In this document: positions 52,057 through 62,949 of the stretch, piece after piece
Position numbering within the stretch: position 1 is the first letter of the stretch
Layout of the letters: each line of letters begins with the position of its first letter
Origin: an uncultured Ilyobacter sp.
Lineage (GTDB): Bacteria; Fusobacteriota; Fusobacteriia; Fusobacteriales; Fusobacteriaceae
Length of the DNA: 64,000 bases
NCBI RefSeq assembly: GCF_963668085.1
Contig: NZ_OY764059.1
Location: 1,364,001-1,428,000 of the forward strand
Direction: 5' to 3'
Made by a program: the position numbers and the translations under genes
Notes under the pieces: model-generated
What the model was told of the DNA's origin: nothing
Seen by the model: the letters and a program-made list of their open reading frames with translations, nothing else
Databases searched by the model: none

Positions 52057-53847
52057 ATGAATATATTGATGGCTTTATCTCAGCTCGAAGTTACAGGAGC
52101 AGAGGTTTATGCCGCTACTTTAAGTGACAGGCTTATAAAGAAGGGGCACAAAGTTTTCATTGTATCTGATACTTTTACCAAAGAAACCAATGGAGAGTTC
52201 CACAAATTAGAATTTAATAAACGTAGTCTTAGAAGACGAATATCACAGGTTAAATTTTTAGTAGATTTTATCAAAAAAAATGATATCCAAGTGGCTCATG
52301 CCCATTCTAGGGCTTCTTCATGGAGCACATCTATAGCTTGTGCTATGACAGGTATACCTCTTATCACCACAGTTCATGGAAGACAGCCTGTTCATCTGAG
52401 CAGAAAGATTTTTAAAGCTTTTGGAGACTATTCTTTTGCTGTATGTGAAAATATAAGAGATCACTTAATAAAAGATTTAGGAGTAAACGAAGATAAGATA
52501 GAGATCCTGAGAAACGGTATTGATATAAACTCATATGTTGAAACTCCCCTTCCTGAAAATGAGAAAAAAATAATCTCTATCATAGGAAGACTTTCAGGGC
52601 CAAAGGGAGAAGTTACTTATAAATTATTAGAAAAGGCACTAGACCCTGAAATATATCACATAAGGATAATCGGGGGGAAAAATATTCCAGATAAATTTAA
52701 GAAATTTACTGATAAGGTGGAATTTCTGGGATATGTGAATAACATCCCTGAATACATCAAAAAATCTGACCTTGTAATAGGAGCAGGAAGAGTCGCTGTA
52801 GAGGCCATTCTTTCCGGAAGGCCCGTATTAGCAATAGGTGAGGCAAAGTCCATAGGGCTCATAACCAAGGATAATATAGCAGAGGCTCTCAGCTCAAACT
52901 TCGGGGATATAGGGGTGAAGTTAGAAGAAAGCTTCAACTGGGACAAGATGTTAGATGACGTAAAGGAAGCTTTTGAACTAAATGAAAATGAGCTTCATGA
53001 AATCAGACATAAAGTAAAAAAAGAATTTGATCTAAAAAAAATAGTTCGAAATCTAGAGATCGCTTATCAAAGGCAGATTGTACTAAAGAAAAAATATGAA
53101 ATGCCTATTCTCATGTATCACAGGGTAATAAAGGATGAGAGCGAAAAAGGAATTCATGGAACCTATGTAACAGTTGATCAGTTTGATGAACATATGAATA
53201 TTTTAAAAGATAGAGGCTATGAAACTGTCGTATTTGAAGACCTTCTTAAAAACAAATTTAAGCAGAGATTTGACAAAAATAAAAAACAGATTATGATAAC
53301 TTTTGATGATGGATACGAAGATAACTATAACTATGCTTTCCCTATCTTAAAAAAATACGGGTTCAAAGCCGTAGTATATCTTGTTTCACACCTTGATTAC
53401 AATAAATGGGATGTGGAAAACATCAACAACCCTGAAAAAAAATACATGTTGATGACCACAGAGCAACTATTGGACATGCAAAAAAACGGCATTGAATTTG
53501 GTGGTCATACGAAGACACATGCAAAACTTTCCCGTATCGAGCCTGAAGAGGCGAGGGAAGAGATTTTTGAATCAAAAGAAAGCCTTGAGAATATTCTAGA
53601 TAAAAAACTTATATCCTTTGCTTATCCCTACGGTGACTTGAACGACAGGGTAAAACAGATGGCAGAAGAGGCTGGGTATAAATTTGCAGTGGCCACAGAT
53701 TCTGGAAGTGCTTGCTTCTCTGATGATCTTTTTCAGATAAGAAGAATCGGCATATTCCCCACAATAAATTCCCTTGGTTTCAAAAGAAAAATTAAAGGAA
53801 ACTATAATTTCATTAAGATTAAAAGAGAGCAAAAGAATGAGAGATGA
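52057..53847 (+). CDS. fusion of GT4 glycosyltransferase and NodB-type polysaccharide deacetylase
   Basis: A 596-residue two-domain protein. Residues 1-345 are a GT-B glycosyltransferase (group 4): HAHSRASSWSTSIACAMTGIP, TTVHGRQPVH, the nucleotide-binding IIGRLSGPKGE and GAGRVAVEAILSGRPVLAIG with the EX7E-type Glu. Residues 350-590 are a CE4 deacetylase: PILMYHRV, metal Asp motif TFDDGY (415-420), HTKTH (484-488) and FAYPYGD. There is no signal peptide or membrane helix, so both activities would act in the cytoplasm, probably on a lipid-linked sugar. The substrate is unknown. Confidence 0.9.
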   Translation: MNILMALSQLEVTGAEVYAATLSDRLIKKGHKVFIVSDTFTKETNGEFHKLEFNKRSLRRRISQVKFLVDFIKKNDIQVAHAHSRASSWSTSIACAMTGIPLITTVHGRQPVHLSRKIFKAFGDYSFAVCENIRDHLIKDLGVNEDKIEILRNGIDINSYVETPLPENEKKIISIIGRLSGPKGEVTYKLLEKALDPEIYHIRIIGGKNIPDKFKKFTDKVEFLGYVNNIPEYIKKSDLVIGAGRVAVEAILSGRPVLAIGEAKSIGLITKDNIAEALSSNFGDIGVKLEESFNWDKMLDDVKEAFELNENELHEIRHKVKKEFDLKKIVRNLEIAYQRQIVLKKKYEMPILMYHRVIKDESEKGIHGTYVTVDQFDEHMNILKDRGYETVVFEDLLKNKFKQRFDKNKKQIMITFDDGYEDNYNYAFPILKKYGFKAVVYLVSHLDYNKWDVENINNPEKKYMLMTTEQLLDMQKNGIEFGGHTKTHAKLSRIEPEEAREEIFESKESLENILDKKLISFAYPYGDLNDRVKQMAEEAGYKFAVATDSGSACFSDDLFQIRRIGIFPTINSLGFKRKIKGNYNFIKIKREQKNER

Positions 53848-55318: not shown

Positions 55319-55356
55319 AAATACCCCTATAGGGGTATTTAATCGCTGCTTTTTTT
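55305..55356. terminator. strong terminator at the end of the TetR gene
   Basis: AAAGCAGCGATTA/TAATCGCTGCTTT outer arms continue into the inner hairpin AATACCCC/GGGGTATT, with T's on the right and A's on the left. It overlaps the TetR stop and nearly touches the converging iron-ADH-like stop. Confidence 0.9.
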
Positions 55357-56314
55357 AATACATTATTACACTTTCATCTTTTCTTGAACCAGGATCCACT
55401 TTTATCATATTAGAGAGTCTTTTTATCTCTTCCATAACCCCTATACTAATCTTTTCATCCTTAGACTCTATCTCCAGGATTTCAGCAATATCCTTCATTT
55501 TTGTATCTATTGCCTCCATATCAAAGGCAGGTGTGTGAAATCCACTTGTCCTTTCTACCTGACCAGGAACTACGGCAATATTATTAAATGCCATATTGGC
55601 AAGATAATTGGCATAAGTCAGCTGTTCCCTTATCTCTTTGGAATTCTTTCCTTTTATAAACTCCTCCAAGTTTTTCTTCAGAATTTTTATCGCCTCAAAG
55701 GCAAAGGTATCACTGATAAGGGTTGCACCTGTAGATACCAGCGCTTCCACAGAATAGGTTAAAGAGTCTATCCCTACTGATGCCATGGCGTCTGTGGGGA
55801 GGTTTCTTATTAGTTCAGAATCTATCACTACCATAAAAGGATTCACCGTCTTATTGAGTTTCACCTTATGACGGTGATACTGATATACACTGTTGTCATC
55901 ATTTATCCATGAATTTATAACTACTGCTGCAAAAGGTATTTCTGCATTTATATAGCAGTTTATGGAGTTATTCTCTTCATAACATTTCAAGCCCATAGCT
56001 ATCCCCTTGGCACATTTTCCAGTATCTCTGCCTCCGAAGGAAATTATAAAGTCACAGTTACTTCCTGAAAACTCCTTTATCCCACCTTCTATTATATCCA
56101 GATCTGGGTTTATATTTTCTACAGCATAGACCATATACTCCAAAGAATTTTCATCAAATATATCAGTTAAGTTTTTCAACAAACCCTTTTCAAATAGAGC
56201 TTTTGATATAACTATGAATCCCTTTTTTAGCCCAAGTTTTTTAAGCTCTTCCCCGGCCTCCTTAAGTGCCCCTGAACCAATAAGACTTATTGGTGACATT
56301 AGCTGTTTTCCCAT
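55355..56314 (-). CDS. degenerate iron-containing alcohol dehydrogenase-like protein
   Basis: A 319-residue protein with the overall dehydroquinate-synthase/iron-ADH fold pattern: FIVISKALFEKGLLKNL, CDFIISFGGRDTGKCAKGIA, MASVGIDSLTYSVEALVS and DTFAFEAI. Normal members have four metal ligands, D-x3-H followed by two more His. Here the Asp (183) remains, but the next His is Tyr187, and the usual HAMAH segment reads VVPGQVERTSGFH (about 248-260). The glycine-rich GGGSxxD motif is also altered. It is probably not a normal metal-dependent dehydrogenase. The start is ATG 56314 after GGAGG. Confidence 0.75.
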   Translation of the reverse strand: MGKQLMSPISLIGSGALKEAGEELKKLGLKKGFIVISKALFEKGLLKNLTDIFDENSLEYMVYAVENINPDLDIIEGGIKEFSGSNCDFIISFGGRDTGKCAKGIAMGLKCYEENNSINCYINAEIPFAAVVINSWINDDNSVYQYHRHKVKLNKTVNPFMVVIDSELIRNLPTDAMASVGIDSLTYSVEALVSTGATLISDTFAFEAIKILKKNLEEFIKGKNSKEIREQLTYANYLANMAFNNIAVVPGQVERTSGFHTPAFDMEAIDTKMKDIAEILEIESKDEKISIGVMEEIKRLSNMIKVDPGSRKDESVIMY

Positions 56315-56340
56315 AATCTTACCTCCGCAGTCCCATGACC

Positions 56341-56610
56341 TCAATATTCTATGTTGAAATCATCATATTTTTTACTGTCAAAAACATCTTCCTCTATACT
56401 CTTGACTCTCGAAGACGGGGGCCCCTCCTCTATAAGTTTCTTAAATACATCCATATACTTTGGCTCCCCTTGGGCTACTATCTCCACATTCCCGTTCCAG
56501 AGATTTTTCACCCATCCCTTTATCTTATATTCATTGGCTATATGGTAGGTAAAAAATCTAAACCCTACCCCTTGTACACGGCCTTTCACTATAAAGTGGT
56601 GCGTAAGCAT
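56341..56610 (-). CDS. acyP: acylphosphatase
   Basis: An 89-residue protein with the complete acylphosphatase fold signature: VKGRVQGVGFRFFTYHIA (catalytic Arg) and IKGWVKNLWNGNVEIVAQGE (catalytic Asn), then GPPSSRVKSIE. It hydrolyses acyl phosphates. It lies between the AroB-Ppx fusion and the iron-ADH-like gene on the same strand with short gaps (17 and 26 bases), so the three probably form one operon. Confidence 0.95.
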   Translation of the reverse strand: MLTHHFIVKGRVQGVGFRFFTYHIANEYKIKGWVKNLWNGNVEIVAQGEPKYMDVFKKLIEEGPPSSRVKSIEEDVFDSKKYDDFNIEY

Positions 56611-56627
56611 ATTACCACACTCCTTTT

Positions 56628-58610
56628 TTAGCTTTCCATCATCCCCTCTAAAATATCATTTTCAGATACTAATATCTCATCTCTTCCGAGGGTTTCCATT
56701 ATCCATTTCAAAATAAAAGTCCCTGCAATTATTACTTCGGCACGTTTAGGGGGAAGTCCTTTTATTTTTTTTCTTTCCTCTATATTTTTTGATAAATAGA
56801 GCTTTATATTTTCCTCTACATTGGGCATTGTGAGATTGTACATGTGCACCTTTTCAGAATCATAATCAACCATTTCTTCATGAACAGTTACATTAGTTGT
56901 AACTGTCCCGGCAACTCCTACAAGGATAAAGTCTCTTTGACTTAACTCCTTTGCCTCTTTTATCTCATTTTTGACCCATTCCTCAGCCAATTTTATATTT
57001 TCTTCACTATGATCATCGTTTACAAAGAATTTCTCTGTTACCCTTACAGCCCCTATATCAAAACTTTTCATAAAGTTTATATCATCTCTAGAACCATTTA
57101 TAAACTCTGTGCTCCCTCCTCCTATATCAACTAAGAGAAGCTCACCTTCTATATCGTCTGAGGCTCCTTTGAAACTTAGCCTTGCCTCTTCATCTCCTGT
57201 GATGCATTTTATTTCAAGACCCGACTCGGTCTTTACCTTTTCTATAAAATCTTCTCTGTTTGATGAGTCTCTAGTAGCAGAAGTAGCACATACCAGTTTT
57301 TCTACAACTCCATAGCTAGCCATTTTTTCAGCATAATTTTTTAGCACATCCACGGTTCTATTTATTGCACTGTCTAAAAGATAGCCATTTTGATTAACAT
57401 CTTCCCCGAGTTTTGTTATTTCAAGATATTTACGAAATTTTCTTTTAATAGAATATTTATTTTCGATTTTCTCAACTTCAGATATAAATAATCTGCATGA
57501 GTTCGTCCCTATATCCACTACCCCTTTTATGGCCCTTTTGTCTATTTCCTGGTTTACCTCTCTTATTATATCTTCAGATACATCCTCTACAGACACCGTT
57601 CCCCTGCCTGTAGGCAGTACAAACTTTATTTTTCCACCTTTATTTTTCTTATCTTTTTTCATGAGGGCAATGAGTCTTTCAATCTCCATTTTTACAGGCT
57701 CACAATCAATCTCATACTTATCAAATATAGTTTTTCCTCTATCTAAAAATTCTTTTTCTACATAACCTAGCTTCTGAGACAGTAATATCTCATAGATTAT
57801 CCCCTTTGCAACAGCTTCTCCGTGGGAATATCCCTTGTACTCAGTAGCTGTCTCTAAGGCATGGGCATAGGTATGACCTAGATTTACTATTGCCCTTATC
57901 CCCTTTTCTTTTTCATCCTCTTCTACTATATTCTTCTTTATTATACAAGATCTTTTTATTACCTCGATGATTTCTTCTGGTCGCAGGTCTTTTACAGCCT
58001 GTGCATTCTCAACTAGATAATCAAAATAGTCATCATCCTTTAAAAATGAATGCTTTATAATTTCCCCCATTCCTGCCTTAAACTCTTTTTCAGGAAGAGT
58101 TTTCAGAAATTCCACATCGATTAAGACGAGTTTTGGCTGATAAAAAGCCCCTATAAGATTCTTGGCTTTAGGATGGTTTACAGCTACCTTCCCCCCTATA
58201 CTTGCATCTACCTGTGAGAGCAAAGATGTAGGAATCTGTATAAAATCAATTCCTCTCATATAAGTTGCAGCTACGTATCCTCCTAGATCTGTTATTACAC
58301 CACCCCCAAGGCTTATTACAAGAGAGCTTCTGTCAAAATCATTTTCCACCATAAAATCATATATTCCAAAGGCACTCTCTATACTCTTGTGTTCTTCTCC
58401 GTCACTTATCTCAAAATAACTTATATTTTTTCCAGTGTTTTCCAGAATATCCAGAACTTTTTCAGAATAAAGGGCCCCTACTTTTGTATTTGATATCAAA
58501 ATTATCTTTTCATATTTAGATACATAATTTTTGAGTTCACCTATTATTCCTTTATCTATAAGTATCGGATAGCTCCTATCCCCCAAGTCCATTCTTATTT
58601 CTTTCATCAT
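56628..58610 (-). CDS. aroB: fusion of 3-dehydroquinate synthase (AroB) and Ppx/GppA phosphatase
   Basis: A single 660-codon frame. Residues 1-350 are AroB: SLGGGVITDLGGYVAATYMRG, IPTSLLSQVDASIGGK and metal ligands Glu183 (MGEIIKH), His246 (LGHTYAH) and His263 (HGEAVA), all conserved. A short linker (351-361) leads to a Ppx/GppA domain (362-655): VVDIGTNSCRLFI, CATSATRDSSNREDF, LLLVDIGGGSTEF, GVAGTVTTN and PPKRAEVIIAGTFIL. Both halves look intact, with no frameshift at the joint. AroB makes dehydroquinate in the shikimate pathway; Ppx/GppA hydrolyses polyphosphate or pppGpp. Other aro genes are not nearby. Confidence 0.92.
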   Translation of the reverse strand: MMKEIRMDLGDRSYPILIDKGIIGELKNYVSKYEKIILISNTKVGALYSEKVLDILENTGKNISYFEISDGEEHKSIESAFGIYDFMVENDFDRSSLVISLGGGVITDLGGYVAATYMRGIDFIQIPTSLLSQVDASIGGKVAVNHPKAKNLIGAFYQPKLVLIDVEFLKTLPEKEFKAGMGEIIKHSFLKDDDYFDYLVENAQAVKDLRPEEIIEVIKRSCIIKKNIVEEDEKEKGIRAIVNLGHTYAHALETATEYKGYSHGEAVAKGIIYEILLSQKLGYVEKEFLDRGKTIFDKYEIDCEPVKMEIERLIALMKKDKKNKGGKIKFVLPTGRGTVSVEDVSEDIIREVNQEIDKRAIKGVVDIGTNSCRLFISEVEKIENKYSIKRKFRKYLEITKLGEDVNQNGYLLDSAINRTVDVLKNYAEKMASYGVVEKLVCATSATRDSSNREDFIEKVKTESGLEIKCITGDEEARLSFKGASDDIEGELLLVDIGGGSTEFINGSRDDINFMKSFDIGAVRVTEKFFVNDDHSEENIKLAEEWVKNEIKEAKELSQRDFILVGVAGTVTTNVTVHEEMVDYDSEKVHMYNLTMPNVEENIKLYLSKNIEERKKIKGLPPKRAEVIIAGTFILKWIMETLGRDEILVSENDILEGMMES

Positions 58611-59904: not shown

Positions 59905-61053
59905 CTATACAAGTTTTTTTATATCTTCTACTTTGTTCGTTCTTTCCCAAGGAAGATCTATGTCTGTTCTTCCTATATGACCAAAGGCTGCCAAATCCTG
60001 ATACTTAAAGTTTCCTGATCTGAGCTCTAAGGCTAGCTCTATTCCTCTAGGACTTAGGTCAAATACCTTTTGCACTATTTCTGCTAGTTTAGTCTCTTCT
60101 ATTTTTCCTGTTCCAAAGGTATCTACCTTTACAGATGTAGGTTCCACCACTCCTATAGCATAAGATAGCTGTATCTCACACTTTTCTGCAAGTTCTGCAG
60201 CTACTATATTCTTAGCTACCCATCTCGCTGCATAGGCTGCCGATCTATCTACCTTCGAAGGATCCTTTCCTGAGAAAGCTCCCCCACCGTGTCTGAAGTA
60301 TCCACCATAGGTATCTACTATTATCTTTCTTCCTGTAAGTCCTGCATCTCCGTGAGGTCCGCCGATTACGAATCTTCCTGTTGGATTTATATGGTAATGT
60401 TTTACCCTTCCAGGATTCATCTTGTATTTTTCAAGGACAGGTTTTACAACCTTCTCGATTATTGTCTCATGGATCTCTTCCTGGCTCACTTCAGGGTTAT
60501 GCTGTACAGACACTACTACTGTATCTACATGATCTACTGTTCCGTTTTTATTGTATGCCAAAGTTACCTGAGATTTTGCATCTGGTCTTCCCCAGATTAT
60601 ATCTTTAGATCTCGCCATTCTTGTATATTTTACGATTATCTCCCTTGCAAGAACAAGGGCTAAAGGCATAAGTTCAGGAGTTTCTTTTACAGCTCCTCCG
60701 AACATTATTCCCTGGTCTCCTGCTCCACCGATATCTACACCCATGGCTATGTCAGGTGACTGTGAGTGAATTGCATTAAGAACCCCGCAGTCTGAGTCAA
60801 ATCCCATACCCTGCTTGTATCCGATCTCATCTATCTTGTCTCTTACTATCTTTTGTACATCTACATATGTATTGGTAGTTATCTCTCCTCCTACCACTAC
60901 CTGACCTGTTGTACAGAATACTTCGCAGGCTACCCTAGAATTTGGGTCTTCTGCTATGCAGGCGTCTAGCACCGCATCTGATACCTGGTCGGCTATCTTA
61001 TCTGGATGGCCTGGTGAAACACATTCTGAAGTAAAGAATATTTTGTTTTCCAT
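59905..61053 (-). CDS. metK: S-adenosylmethionine synthetase
   Basis: A 382-residue enzyme making AdoMet from methionine and ATP. Family signatures are [23 protein letters not shown], the loop [23 protein letters not shown] (in part), [26 protein letters not shown] (in part) and [19 protein letters not shown]. All are intact. It ends next to a shared terminator. speE and speD lie upstream on the same strand, separated by repeat copy D. AdoMet feeds SpeD and is also sensed by the metN riboswitch. Confidence 0.97.
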
Positions 61054-61111
61054 TTATGATAATCCTCCTGATTTTTTCATAATTTGATTTTCCACTTATT
61101 GCTTAATTAAA

Positions 61112-61580
61112 GTATTGAATTTATCGGAAAACCTGTGTTACTTTCTTTGCTTGCCCAAAGAAAGTAACCAAAGAAAAGGCACCCCTAAAAAATACCTAAA
61201 ATCCCTTCTGAACTAACTTTCTATTGAAATATAGTCGGTAAACCTCCTTATTTCAATGAAAGTGGATTTCACAAGATGATTTCTTAACGGTATTTTTTAA
61301 AGGGGAATTAAAAATCTTTAAATAATTTTTTTAAATCTTTTGAAATTCTTTTGGCCATTGACAAAATAAGCGTTAAGAATGACTGAGAGAAATCTCTAGA
61401 AAAAATCAACTGTTTGAGCGAAGCGAGTTTTGATTTTTACTTAGATTTCCGAAGGCATTTAGCTTATTTTTCACAGGCCTTGATTTTTGGTTATGCCCTG
61501 ACCGAAGGGAGGAAATGCCCTTGGGGTGCTTTTCATCAAGGAAAAGTAACGGAACTTTGGGTAAATTCAGTAATTTATTT
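61112..61580. repeat. interspersed repeat, copy D
   Basis: About 470 bases. The left 320 bases match copy C almost base for base (for example GTTACTTTCTTTGCTTG and ATAGTCGGTAAACCTCCTTA). After GAGCGAAGCGAG about 100 bases are missing or replaced, and the match resumes from the TTTCACAGG core to the end. Terminal inverted repeats are visible (TTGAATTTATCGG... against AAATTCAGTAATTTAT). It separates metK from speE, which otherwise look like one operon. No gene is seen in 61054-61625. Confidence 0.8.
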
Positions 61581-61625
61581 AAATTTCTTTCCAGTAACAA
61601 CTTAAGTTAAAAAATCTAAAAAATT

Positions 61626-62483
61626 TCACTCAGACTCTTCAAGCATATCCTTCACAAAAGTAGGCAGTGCAAAAGAAGCCTTGTGAATCTCAGAGTTGTA
61701 ATATTTAGTTTTAAGTCCAAATTTTTCCCACTCTTCAGGCTTATGATCTGCTACAGGATCATATTTCTTAGATGCAAATCCAAAAAGCCAGTGTCCTGAA
61801 GGATAAGTTGGAATATGAAATTGATATACCTTGGAAATTGGAAAAAGGTCTTTTATTCTCTTGTGAGCCCTTTTCATCTGCCCAGCTTCTTTATCAAAAT
61901 AAGGACTTTCATGCTGGTTTATAAGAATCCCGTCGTCAGATAGGGCTCTAAAACAGTTTTCGTAAAATTCCTTTGTAAAGAGTCCCTCTCCAGGACCTAT
62001 AGGGTCTGTAGAGTCAACAAGTATCAGGTCATAACTTTTTTCTTCTGCATCTTCTACAAACTTTAGCCCGTCTTGAAAATAAAGATTTACCCTTGGGTCC
62101 TCTAATTTGCAAGATGTCTGTACAAGATATTTCTGACAAAGTCTCACTACTCTTTCATCTATCTCTACCATGTCGATTTTCTCTATGTGAGGATATCTGG
62201 TTATCTCCCTCACAGTTCCTCCGTCTCCACCACCGATAACAAGGACCTTTTTTATATCAGGATTAGTTGCAAGGGCAACATGGGAGATCATATCATGATA
62301 TACAAACTCATCCTTTTCATTGGCCATCATAATCCCGTCAAGGGTAAAGAACTTTCCAAATTCATAAGAATCAAAAAAATCCAACTGCTGAAAGGGACTT
62401 TTTTCTGTATGAAGGTGTTCCTTTATTTTTATAGAAAATCTACACTCTGGTGTCCAATCCTCTGTAAACCAAAGATTAAGCAT
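61626..62483 (-). CDS. speE: spermidine synthase
   Basis: A 285-residue aminopropyltransferase. It has the nucleotide-binding motif VLVIGGGDGGTVREITRYP, the acidic residue in DMVEIDERVV, and the family segment YDLILVDSTDPIGPGEGLFTKEFY. It uses decarboxylated AdoMet, made by the neighbouring SpeD, to convert putrescine to spermidine. GGAGG precedes the ATG. It starts 43 bases after the speD stop. The normal N-terminal W-x-T/D region (LWFTEDWTPECRFSIKI) is present. Confidence 0.96.
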   Translation of the reverse strand: MLNLWFTEDWTPECRFSIKIKEHLHTEKSPFQQLDFFDSYEFGKFFTLDGIMMANEKDEFVYHDMISHVALATNPDIKKVLVIGGGDGGTVREITRYPHIEKIDMVEIDERVVRLCQKYLVQTSCKLEDPRVNLYFQDGLKFVEDAEEKSYDLILVDSTDPIGPGEGLFTKEFYENCFRALSDDGILINQHESPYFDKEAGQMKRAHKRIKDLFPISKVYQFHIPTYPSGHWLFGFASKKYDPVADHKPEEWEKFGLKTKYYNSEIHKASFALPTFVKDMLEESE

Positions 62484-62526
62484 TAAGTTACCTCCTGATT
62501 TTTTTCATTGATGTAATTTTTTTTAC

Positions 62527-62949
62527 TTATTCAGCATCTGGCTTGAATACTATTTTACCCAGTTCCTCTCCATTTGGATGGAATTTTTTTATCTTTTCAG
62601 TCATACCTCTTGGTACCTCTATAGATTCACTTCTGCTGGCTCCAAACATTTCTTCAAGATAATCAAAAGCCGTCCAAGGATTGATCTTATCCCCACATGT
62701 AAAAACGTCTACAGCTGCATAGCCGTACTCTGGCCAAGTATGAATTGCCAAGTGTGATTCAGATATTATTACCGCTCCAGAAACCCCGTAAGGATTGAAA
62801 TGATGAAACACGGAATTCACTATGGTTGCATTTGCAATTCTAGCCGCTTCATTCATGTATTTTTCAATAAGTTCAGGGCTTTTCAATACTTCTTCATCAC
62901 AGTTGTAGTACTCTATCAAAATGTGTCTCCCTAAAGTTTCTAATTTCAT
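62527..62949 (-). CDS. speD: S-adenosylmethionine decarboxylase (prokaryotic class 1B)
   Basis: A 140-residue proenzyme. The self-cleavage site lies in SESHLAIHTWPEYGYAAVD: cleavage before Ser65 produces the pyruvoyl group. The catalytic Cys is in DVFTCGDK. It decarboxylates AdoMet to supply SpeE. Length is slightly above the usual 120-130 residues because of a C-terminal tail. It is the first gene of the speD-speE pair, with GGAGG before the ATG. Confidence 0.96.
   Translation of the reverse strand: MKLETLGRHILIEYYNCDEEVLKSPELIEKYMNEAARIANATIVNSVFHHFNPYGVSGAVIISESHLAIHTWPEYGYAAVDVFTCGDKINPWTAFDYLEEMFGASRSESIEVPRGMTEKIKKFHPNGEELGKIVFKPDAE

Follow-up and report, generated by a model that had tools for sequence, protein, structure and literature searches.

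The fused gene and its surroundings

On the minus strand of the 64,000-nucleotide stretch of DNA analysed here (the window), a single open frame encodes a protein in which 3-dehydroquinate (DHQ) synthase, AroB, is joined to a short phosphatase of the Ppx/GppA family. The earlier note had described such a single-frame fusion at 56628-58610, and both the coordinates and the length of 660 codons are correct. The open frame runs from 58610 to 56628, and the plus strand across this interval contains many stops. The features of the locus are:

56628..58610, minus strand: aroB-ppx/gppA fusion gene, 660 codons plus stop in one frame with an ATG start
57576..58610, minus strand: AroB (3-dehydroquinate synthase) half, residues 1-345 (TIGR01357, 380 bits; catalytic residues; DHQS fold)
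57537..57575, minus strand: joint, residues 346-358 (predicted structure and joint alignment of 40 proteins)
56631..57536, minus strand: short Ppx/GppA phosphatase half, residues 359-660 (PF02541, 190 bits; motif residues; Aquifex Ppx/GppA structures 2j4r and 1t6c)
56341..56610, minus strand: acylphosphatase gene, directly downstream of the fusion (PF00708, 96 bits)

Three Pfam domains, DHQ_synthase (residues 67-178), DHQS_C (180-323) and Ppx-GppA (397-658), are recognized in the window protein. The score of the N-terminal half with the NCBIfam aroB model (residues 14-347) is well above the cut-off of 305 bits, and that of the C-terminal half with PF02541 lies far above the cut-off of 27 bits. 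The best NCBIfam match of the latter half is exo_poly_only (TIGR03706, residues 363-658), which at 234 bits remains below its cut-off of 307, and a gap of 15 residues (348-362) separates it from the aroB match. The C-terminal region of about 150-200 residues found in GppA and PPX of the E. coli type is absent, as the Ppx-GppA match ends at residue 658 of 660; accordingly, the match of the Ppx half to 1u6z covers that chain only up to residue 302 of 513. No other shikimate domain was detected in the chain by Pfam, and it does not qualify as an AROM protein.

The predicted structure of the window protein has a mean pLDDT of 92.8 and a pTM of 0.88, and the best Foldseek match of the AroB half is 3okf (E = 2.9e-34). 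At the joint, a helix (346-355) leads into the first Ppx strand at residue 359, with pLDDT of 95-96 in the blocks that span residues 341-370. Given that a pTM of 0.88 is high for two domains, a fixed arrangement is suggested, i.e., the two halves are predicted to be packed as one rigid unit.

The acylphosphatase gene, which the earlier note had also placed directly downstream, starts 17 bases past the stop codon of the fusion, and a relative of it is found 3' of ppx, fused as well as free, in several other genomes. It is followed by a frame of the iron-alcohol-dehydrogenase family, with a 4-base overlap between the two as listed. The family matches of this latter frame (55355-56344, minus strand) end at about residue 257 of 329 (PF25137, positions 2-71 of 194), so that its C-terminal part is divergent or degenerate; the frame is of equal length in two other genomes (G042 and G043). 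Elsewhere in the window, a family-4 glycosyltransferase and a polysaccharide deacetylase share one frame of 596 residues (52057-53847, plus strand), and a gene row at 59905-62949 (minus strand) encodes S-adenosylmethionine synthetase, spermidine synthase and S-adenosylmethionine decarboxylase.

Distribution, active sites and origin of the fusion

Both halves are encoded in a single open frame in 40 of the 98 Fusobacteriota genomes surveyed (with at most 12 candidates scored per genome), which represent 13 genera of two families, f1 and f2. In 39 of these, the fused protein was recovered as one match, and in the remaining one (G051) as two matches inside one frame of 690 residues. The earlier note had conceded that its case would fall if the two genes were always separate in relatives and the join were an assembly error; the 40 genomes that carry the fused form dispose of this concern. 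The other 39 fused proteins are 31-97% identical to that of the window and contain no internal stop. Because 39 other genomes contain the same frame, an assembly join or a chance event is ruled out, and the probability that the joint reflects an assembly or frameshift artefact is negligible. Two known enzyme families are genuinely combined in this protein.

The short Ppx is free in 20 further genomes of the window's family and in three genomes of family f4, and a free AroB match is present in 45 of the 98 genomes. One genome (G063), with only a Ppx fragment at a contig edge, was counted as neither fused nor free. The sole other match in the window's own genome is a long Ppx paralogue on a different contig. 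One genome (G039) has a second, free AroB (L098; 353 residues, 354 bits with TIGR01357) beside the fused one. In the plasmid collection, one of the 182 matched records covers at least 80% of the query; it comes from Fusobacterium vincentii, which carries the fused form (97% of the query, 49% identity).

In the search for the fusion elsewhere, the genome-contig scan yielded 14 loci, with matches that reach residue 388 at most, and in five genomes outside the phylum the halves are apart or AroB is present alone. In the phylum of the Tissierella locus (398 genomes, 112 of them matched at E <= 1e-82) and in that of the Spirochaetia locus (392 genomes, 19 matched at E <= 1e-70), no match among those listed covers both halves, and all of these end by residue 390. 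Nine AroB proteins of these two phyla were listed with open frames of more than 530 residues, and their sequences were fetched. Among the seven that were scanned with Pfam, five combine AroB with shikimate kinase and two carry an N-terminal extension that matches no family; Ppx was detected in none of the seven. The frames of the remaining two, when read from the middle of AroB, have 381 and 372 residues, with almost nothing after AroB, which disagrees with their original listing at 611 (with a stop inside) and 582 residues. The AroB-Ppx/GppA fusion has so far been seen only in Fusobacteriota, and no paper on it was found in the open-licence PMC literature.

In all 37 fused proteins outside genus g12 (see below), the AroB residues R119, D135, K141, N151, E183, K186, R239, N243, H246, H250, H263 and K321 are present. 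These positions, which comprise the metal ligands and catalytic residues, were mapped by motif to their A. nidulans equivalents. Positions 226 and 236 were considered as the equivalent of A. nidulans K250 and rejected, both being variable; K225 is near-invariant. In the Ppx half, R447, E475, D495, E502, D366, N370, R373, G499 and S500 are present in all 40 proteins, and T569 is replaced by Ser in two of them, with the other motif residues unchanged. The roles of these motifs, likewise mapped by motif here (Arg and Glu in hydrolysis, Asp and Glu in metal binding), are as given for MTB-PPX1 in PMC3411833. The structure alignments included 34 and 30 of the 40 fused proteins. Judging from these residues, both active sites are intact in 37 of the 40 proteins, among them that of the window, in which the earlier note had seen a complete AroB and a complete Ppx/GppA domain.

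The AroB tree was built from 72 rows (40 fused, 19 free from Fusobacteriota and 13 outgroup, several of the latter long-branched; L005 was left out). All 40 fused AroBs fall on one side of a branch that has a support of 100/99 and is present in 100% of 200 bootstrap trees, and the quick tree gave the same result. In the Ppx tree (59 rows, with the long paralogue L002 of the first tree removed and 17 of the 20 free f1 Ppx included), fused and free rows are mixed, with 6 changes, and a single clade of fused rows is rejected (p-AU 4.4e-47). Both trees are probably accounted for by a single fusion event and some five later losses of the AroB half (in g14, g6, G046, G030 and the other free g5). Repeated fusion of one AroB lineage is a possible alternative, albeit a less economical one.

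The gene order agrees with one fusion and subsequent losses, given that an aroK-family gene lies upstream of fused genes and of one free ppx alike. Specifically, it immediately precedes the fused gene in four genomes (G044 and G062, identified by Pfam, and G045 and G041, by clustering), and in G046 an aroK-family frame ends 18 bases before the free ppx. The Ppx of G046 is the sister of the Ppx of the fused G045 (100/100), and a free AroB fragment of G046 is located at the edge of another contig. The fusion would probably have arisen from a row of aroK, aroB and ppx genes, no later than in the common ancestor of f1 and f2. Furthermore, in genus g5, the fused gene (G019 and G020) and the free ppx (G026-G030) are flanked by members of the same families, with an M48 peptidase encoded at one end and a selD-like/selA/selB cluster at the opposite end (families named from representatives in G003).

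Several other features of these neighbourhoods were observed. In many relatives (L050, L052, L105, L067 and others), ppx, fused or free, is located just upstream of a selenium cluster that comprises a selD-like protein of the AIRS family, selA, selB, a TusA/DsrE-like protein and a Se/S carrier (Pfam on the L050 copies). The free Ppx in part of g5 (L067, L069, L070, L074 and L076) has a C-terminal tail of 88 residues, and in six other g5 genomes and one g11 genome, relatives of this tail are encoded immediately 3' of the fused gene (tblastn). In g14 (L066, L068, L071, L073 and L077), a gene with a RelA_SpoT domain, identified by Pfam on the L066 copy, adjoins the free ppx and faces it, with the acylphosphatase gene between them in four of the five loci.

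The same neighbourhoods bear on an alternative in which the fusion is neutral, i.e., two independent enzymes in a gene row were joined by loss of a stop codon and are harmlessly co-translated, without structural or regulatory coupling. The aroK-aroB/ppx order in the four genomes, the repeated loss of the AroB half and the occurrence of other fusing at the locus, such as the 88-residue stretch on some of the free g5 proteins, are all consistent with this possibility. Retention of the fused form in 13 genera and the rigid packing predicted from the pTM of the window model argue against it, as does the case described next.

The AroB half in genus g12

Genus g12 is represented by three genomes (G050, G051 and G052, with a completeness of 99, 92 and 97%, respectively), and the AroB half of their fused proteins has lost most of the residues listed above: R119, D135, K141, R239, N243, H246, H250 and K321 are missing from all three and H263 from two, with E183 and K186 kept. 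The loss of R119 is the least certain because the preceding column contains an Arg in G050 and G051. Outside g12, 60 AroB sites are near-invariant (in at least 36 of the 37 proteins); 21 of them are kept in all three g12 proteins, and 20 carry one and the same substitute residue in all three; the corresponding count for Ppx sites is 42 kept out of 44. With TIGR01357, the three proteins score 135-165 bits against the cut-off of 305, and since this is far below the AroB threshold, they should not be annotated as DHQ synthases.

The other genes of the pathway that were searched for are aroC, EPSP synthase, shikimate kinase and AroE. The 98-genome survey revealed no other AroB in G050, G051 or G052, and chorismate synthase (aroC) was found in none of the three. 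EPSP synthase (aroA) was not found in them either: the aroA model gives 75-82 bits against a cut-off of 287, and the sole EPSP-family protein of each genome is MurA (NCBIfam, 528-544 bits against 392.7). For comparison, seven of eight other genomes encode two EPSP-family proteins and one (G036) encodes a single one. Shikimate kinase was detected in none of the three, but one G052 match of 21.2 bits was marked as barely attaining the cut-off of 22.1 when taken together with its frame neighbours. Two of the three genomes have an AroE above the TIGR00507 cut-off of 200.2 bits (217 and 220 bits):

L118, 282-1148: shikimate dehydrogenase of G050 (TIGR00507)
L119, 657-1523: shikimate dehydrogenase of G052 (TIGR00507)

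These observations suggest that the shikimate pathway has been mostly lost in g12, although not necessarily completely because AroE remains in two of the three genomes.

Despite its decay, the AroB half of g12 is constrained. Between G050 and G051, the one g12 pair of three that is not saturated, dN/dS is 0.171 for the AroB half, close to the 0.177 of the Ppx half, at dS of 1.3-1.5, and the AroB fold is still predicted, with TM-scores (by target length) of 0.77-0.90 to solved DHQ synthases. Such constraint may serve a function or may act only against misfolding. The model of the G050 protein has a pLDDT of 88.0, a pTM of only 0.55 and a disordered linker (373-382), so that a fixed arrangement of the halves is not predicted in g12.

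The retention of a dead half suggests that the phosphatase benefits from the AroB fold itself and not from its chemistry alone. We tentatively propose, with confidence that stops somewhat short of even, that Ppx/GppA has acquired the fold of DHQ synthase as a module without catalytic function, the g12 AroB being a pseudoenzyme, kept by selection, that perhaps binds a new ligand, in line with the 20 shared substitutions, or sets the oligomeric state. Purifying selection on this half is also at odds with the neutral fusion described above, which we consider rather unlikely. The dead half in g12 and the repeated loss of the AroB half elsewhere both go beyond the earlier note.

Function and relation to known systems

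Taken together, we favour, at somewhat better than even confidence, a bifunctional enzyme whose AroB fold has in addition become a structural module of the phosphatase. Judging from the families and the intact residues, the N-terminal half would convert DAHP to 3-dehydroquinate in the shikimate pathway, and the C-terminal half would hydrolyse a terminal phosphoanhydride. The AroB fold might serve the phosphatase through effects on its stability, its oligomeric state or the accessibility of its active site, and under this bifunctional scheme such a structural role is the reason why g12 keeps a dead AroB half after the loss of most of the pathway. The history would be that of a single fusion with several later losses of the AroB half, as supported by the comparison of genomes. 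On the other hand, the roughly five inferred losses show that in other lineages Ppx/GppA can do without the AroB half, and the Ppx of G036, a genome from which both aroC and aroB are missing, is free.

With respect to the substrate, the distribution of polyphosphate kinases is informative. PPK1 is present in 28 of the 98 genomes and in 16 of the 40 with the fusion, including that of the window; PPK2 exceeds its cut-off in 19 of the 98. Neither has a match over the cut-off in 23 of the 40 fused genomes, 19 of which are at least 90% complete. A second Ppx (E <= 1e-20) is encoded in 18 genomes, all with PPK1, and lies no more than about 3.5 kb from PPK1 in 15 of these and about 1 kb from PPK2 in the other three; this PPK-adjacent protein is a different paralogue from the fused-type Ppx. 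A RelA_SpoT match was obtained in 96 of the 98 genomes and in all 40 with the fusion. The absence of PPK, the second Ppx beside PPK and the presence of RelA_SpoT favour an alarmone or nucleotide, with conversion of pppGpp to ppGpp foremost, as a more likely substrate than PPK-made polyphosphate. This preference is tempered by the short mycobacterial PPX-GppA proteins Rv0496 and Rv1026, for which PMC3411833 reports no hydrolysis of pppGpp.

The phosphatase half could instead be an ordinary exopolyphosphatase that acts on PPK-made polyphosphate, which is compatible with any of the readings of the fusion itself. The best NCBIfam match (exo_poly_only), the PPK1 genes of the 16 fused genomes and the description of Rv0496 as a short-chain exopolyphosphatase in PMC3411833 are in line with this assignment, but the sub-threshold score of that match, the 23 fused genomes without PPK1 and PPK2, and the location of the second Ppx next to PPK1 or PPK2 in 18 genomes make it rather doubtful. 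Hence the link to polyphosphate suggested in the earlier note is weakened by the genomes without PPK and by the separate PPK-adjacent paralogue, and retains some support from the genomes with PPK1, that of the window among them.

Regulatory coupling, in which the phosphatase half would bind (p)ppGpp and tune DHQ synthase, as the earlier note had considered, or the shikimate flux would tune the hydrolysis of alarmone or polyphosphate, appears improbable. RelA_SpoT accompanies the fusion in every genome and is encoded by the facing near neighbour of the free ppx in g14, but this co-occurrence says little because the match is nearly universal, and g12 presumably has no remaining AroB activity that could be regulated.

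In this protein, a biosynthetic enzyme has been joined, probably in a single event, to a phosphatase of the alarmone/polyphosphate family. The intact fusions, the lineages that shed the AroB half and the one genus that retains this half in a dead form are a natural comparison series; they allow a direct test of whether phosphatases of this type can take on a metabolic enzyme as a structural or regulatory component. In our view, the retained pseudo-AroB is the most interesting part of the AroB-Ppx/GppA fusion.

Among known proteins, fungal AROM (PDB 6hqv and 7u5s, matching residues 81-379 and 73-363) similarly has DHQ synthase at the N-terminus of a multi-enzyme chain. The partner domains of AROM are shikimate enzymes, whereas AroB of the window protein is joined to a Ppx/GppA phosphatase, with no other shikimate domain matched. 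The bacterial AroK-AroB proteins (NF010627 and NF010556), to which the five kinase fusions in the samples of other phyla correspond, also combine AroB with another domain in one frame. The window protein, by contrast, scores 229.6 and 167 bits with these models against cut-offs of 565 and 560, lacks a kinase domain and has AroB at its N-terminus. The C-terminal half resembles the short Ppx/GppA of Aquifex aeolicus (1t6c and 2j4r) in length, fold and motif residues, but the solved chain of the latter, of 308-315 residues, stands alone, without AroB. Rv0496 and Rv1026 of M. tuberculosis are not known to be fused either. They are similar to the C-terminal half in being short PPX-GppA proteins; according to PMC3411833, they align with the E. 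coli enzymes in the N-terminal region of the latter.
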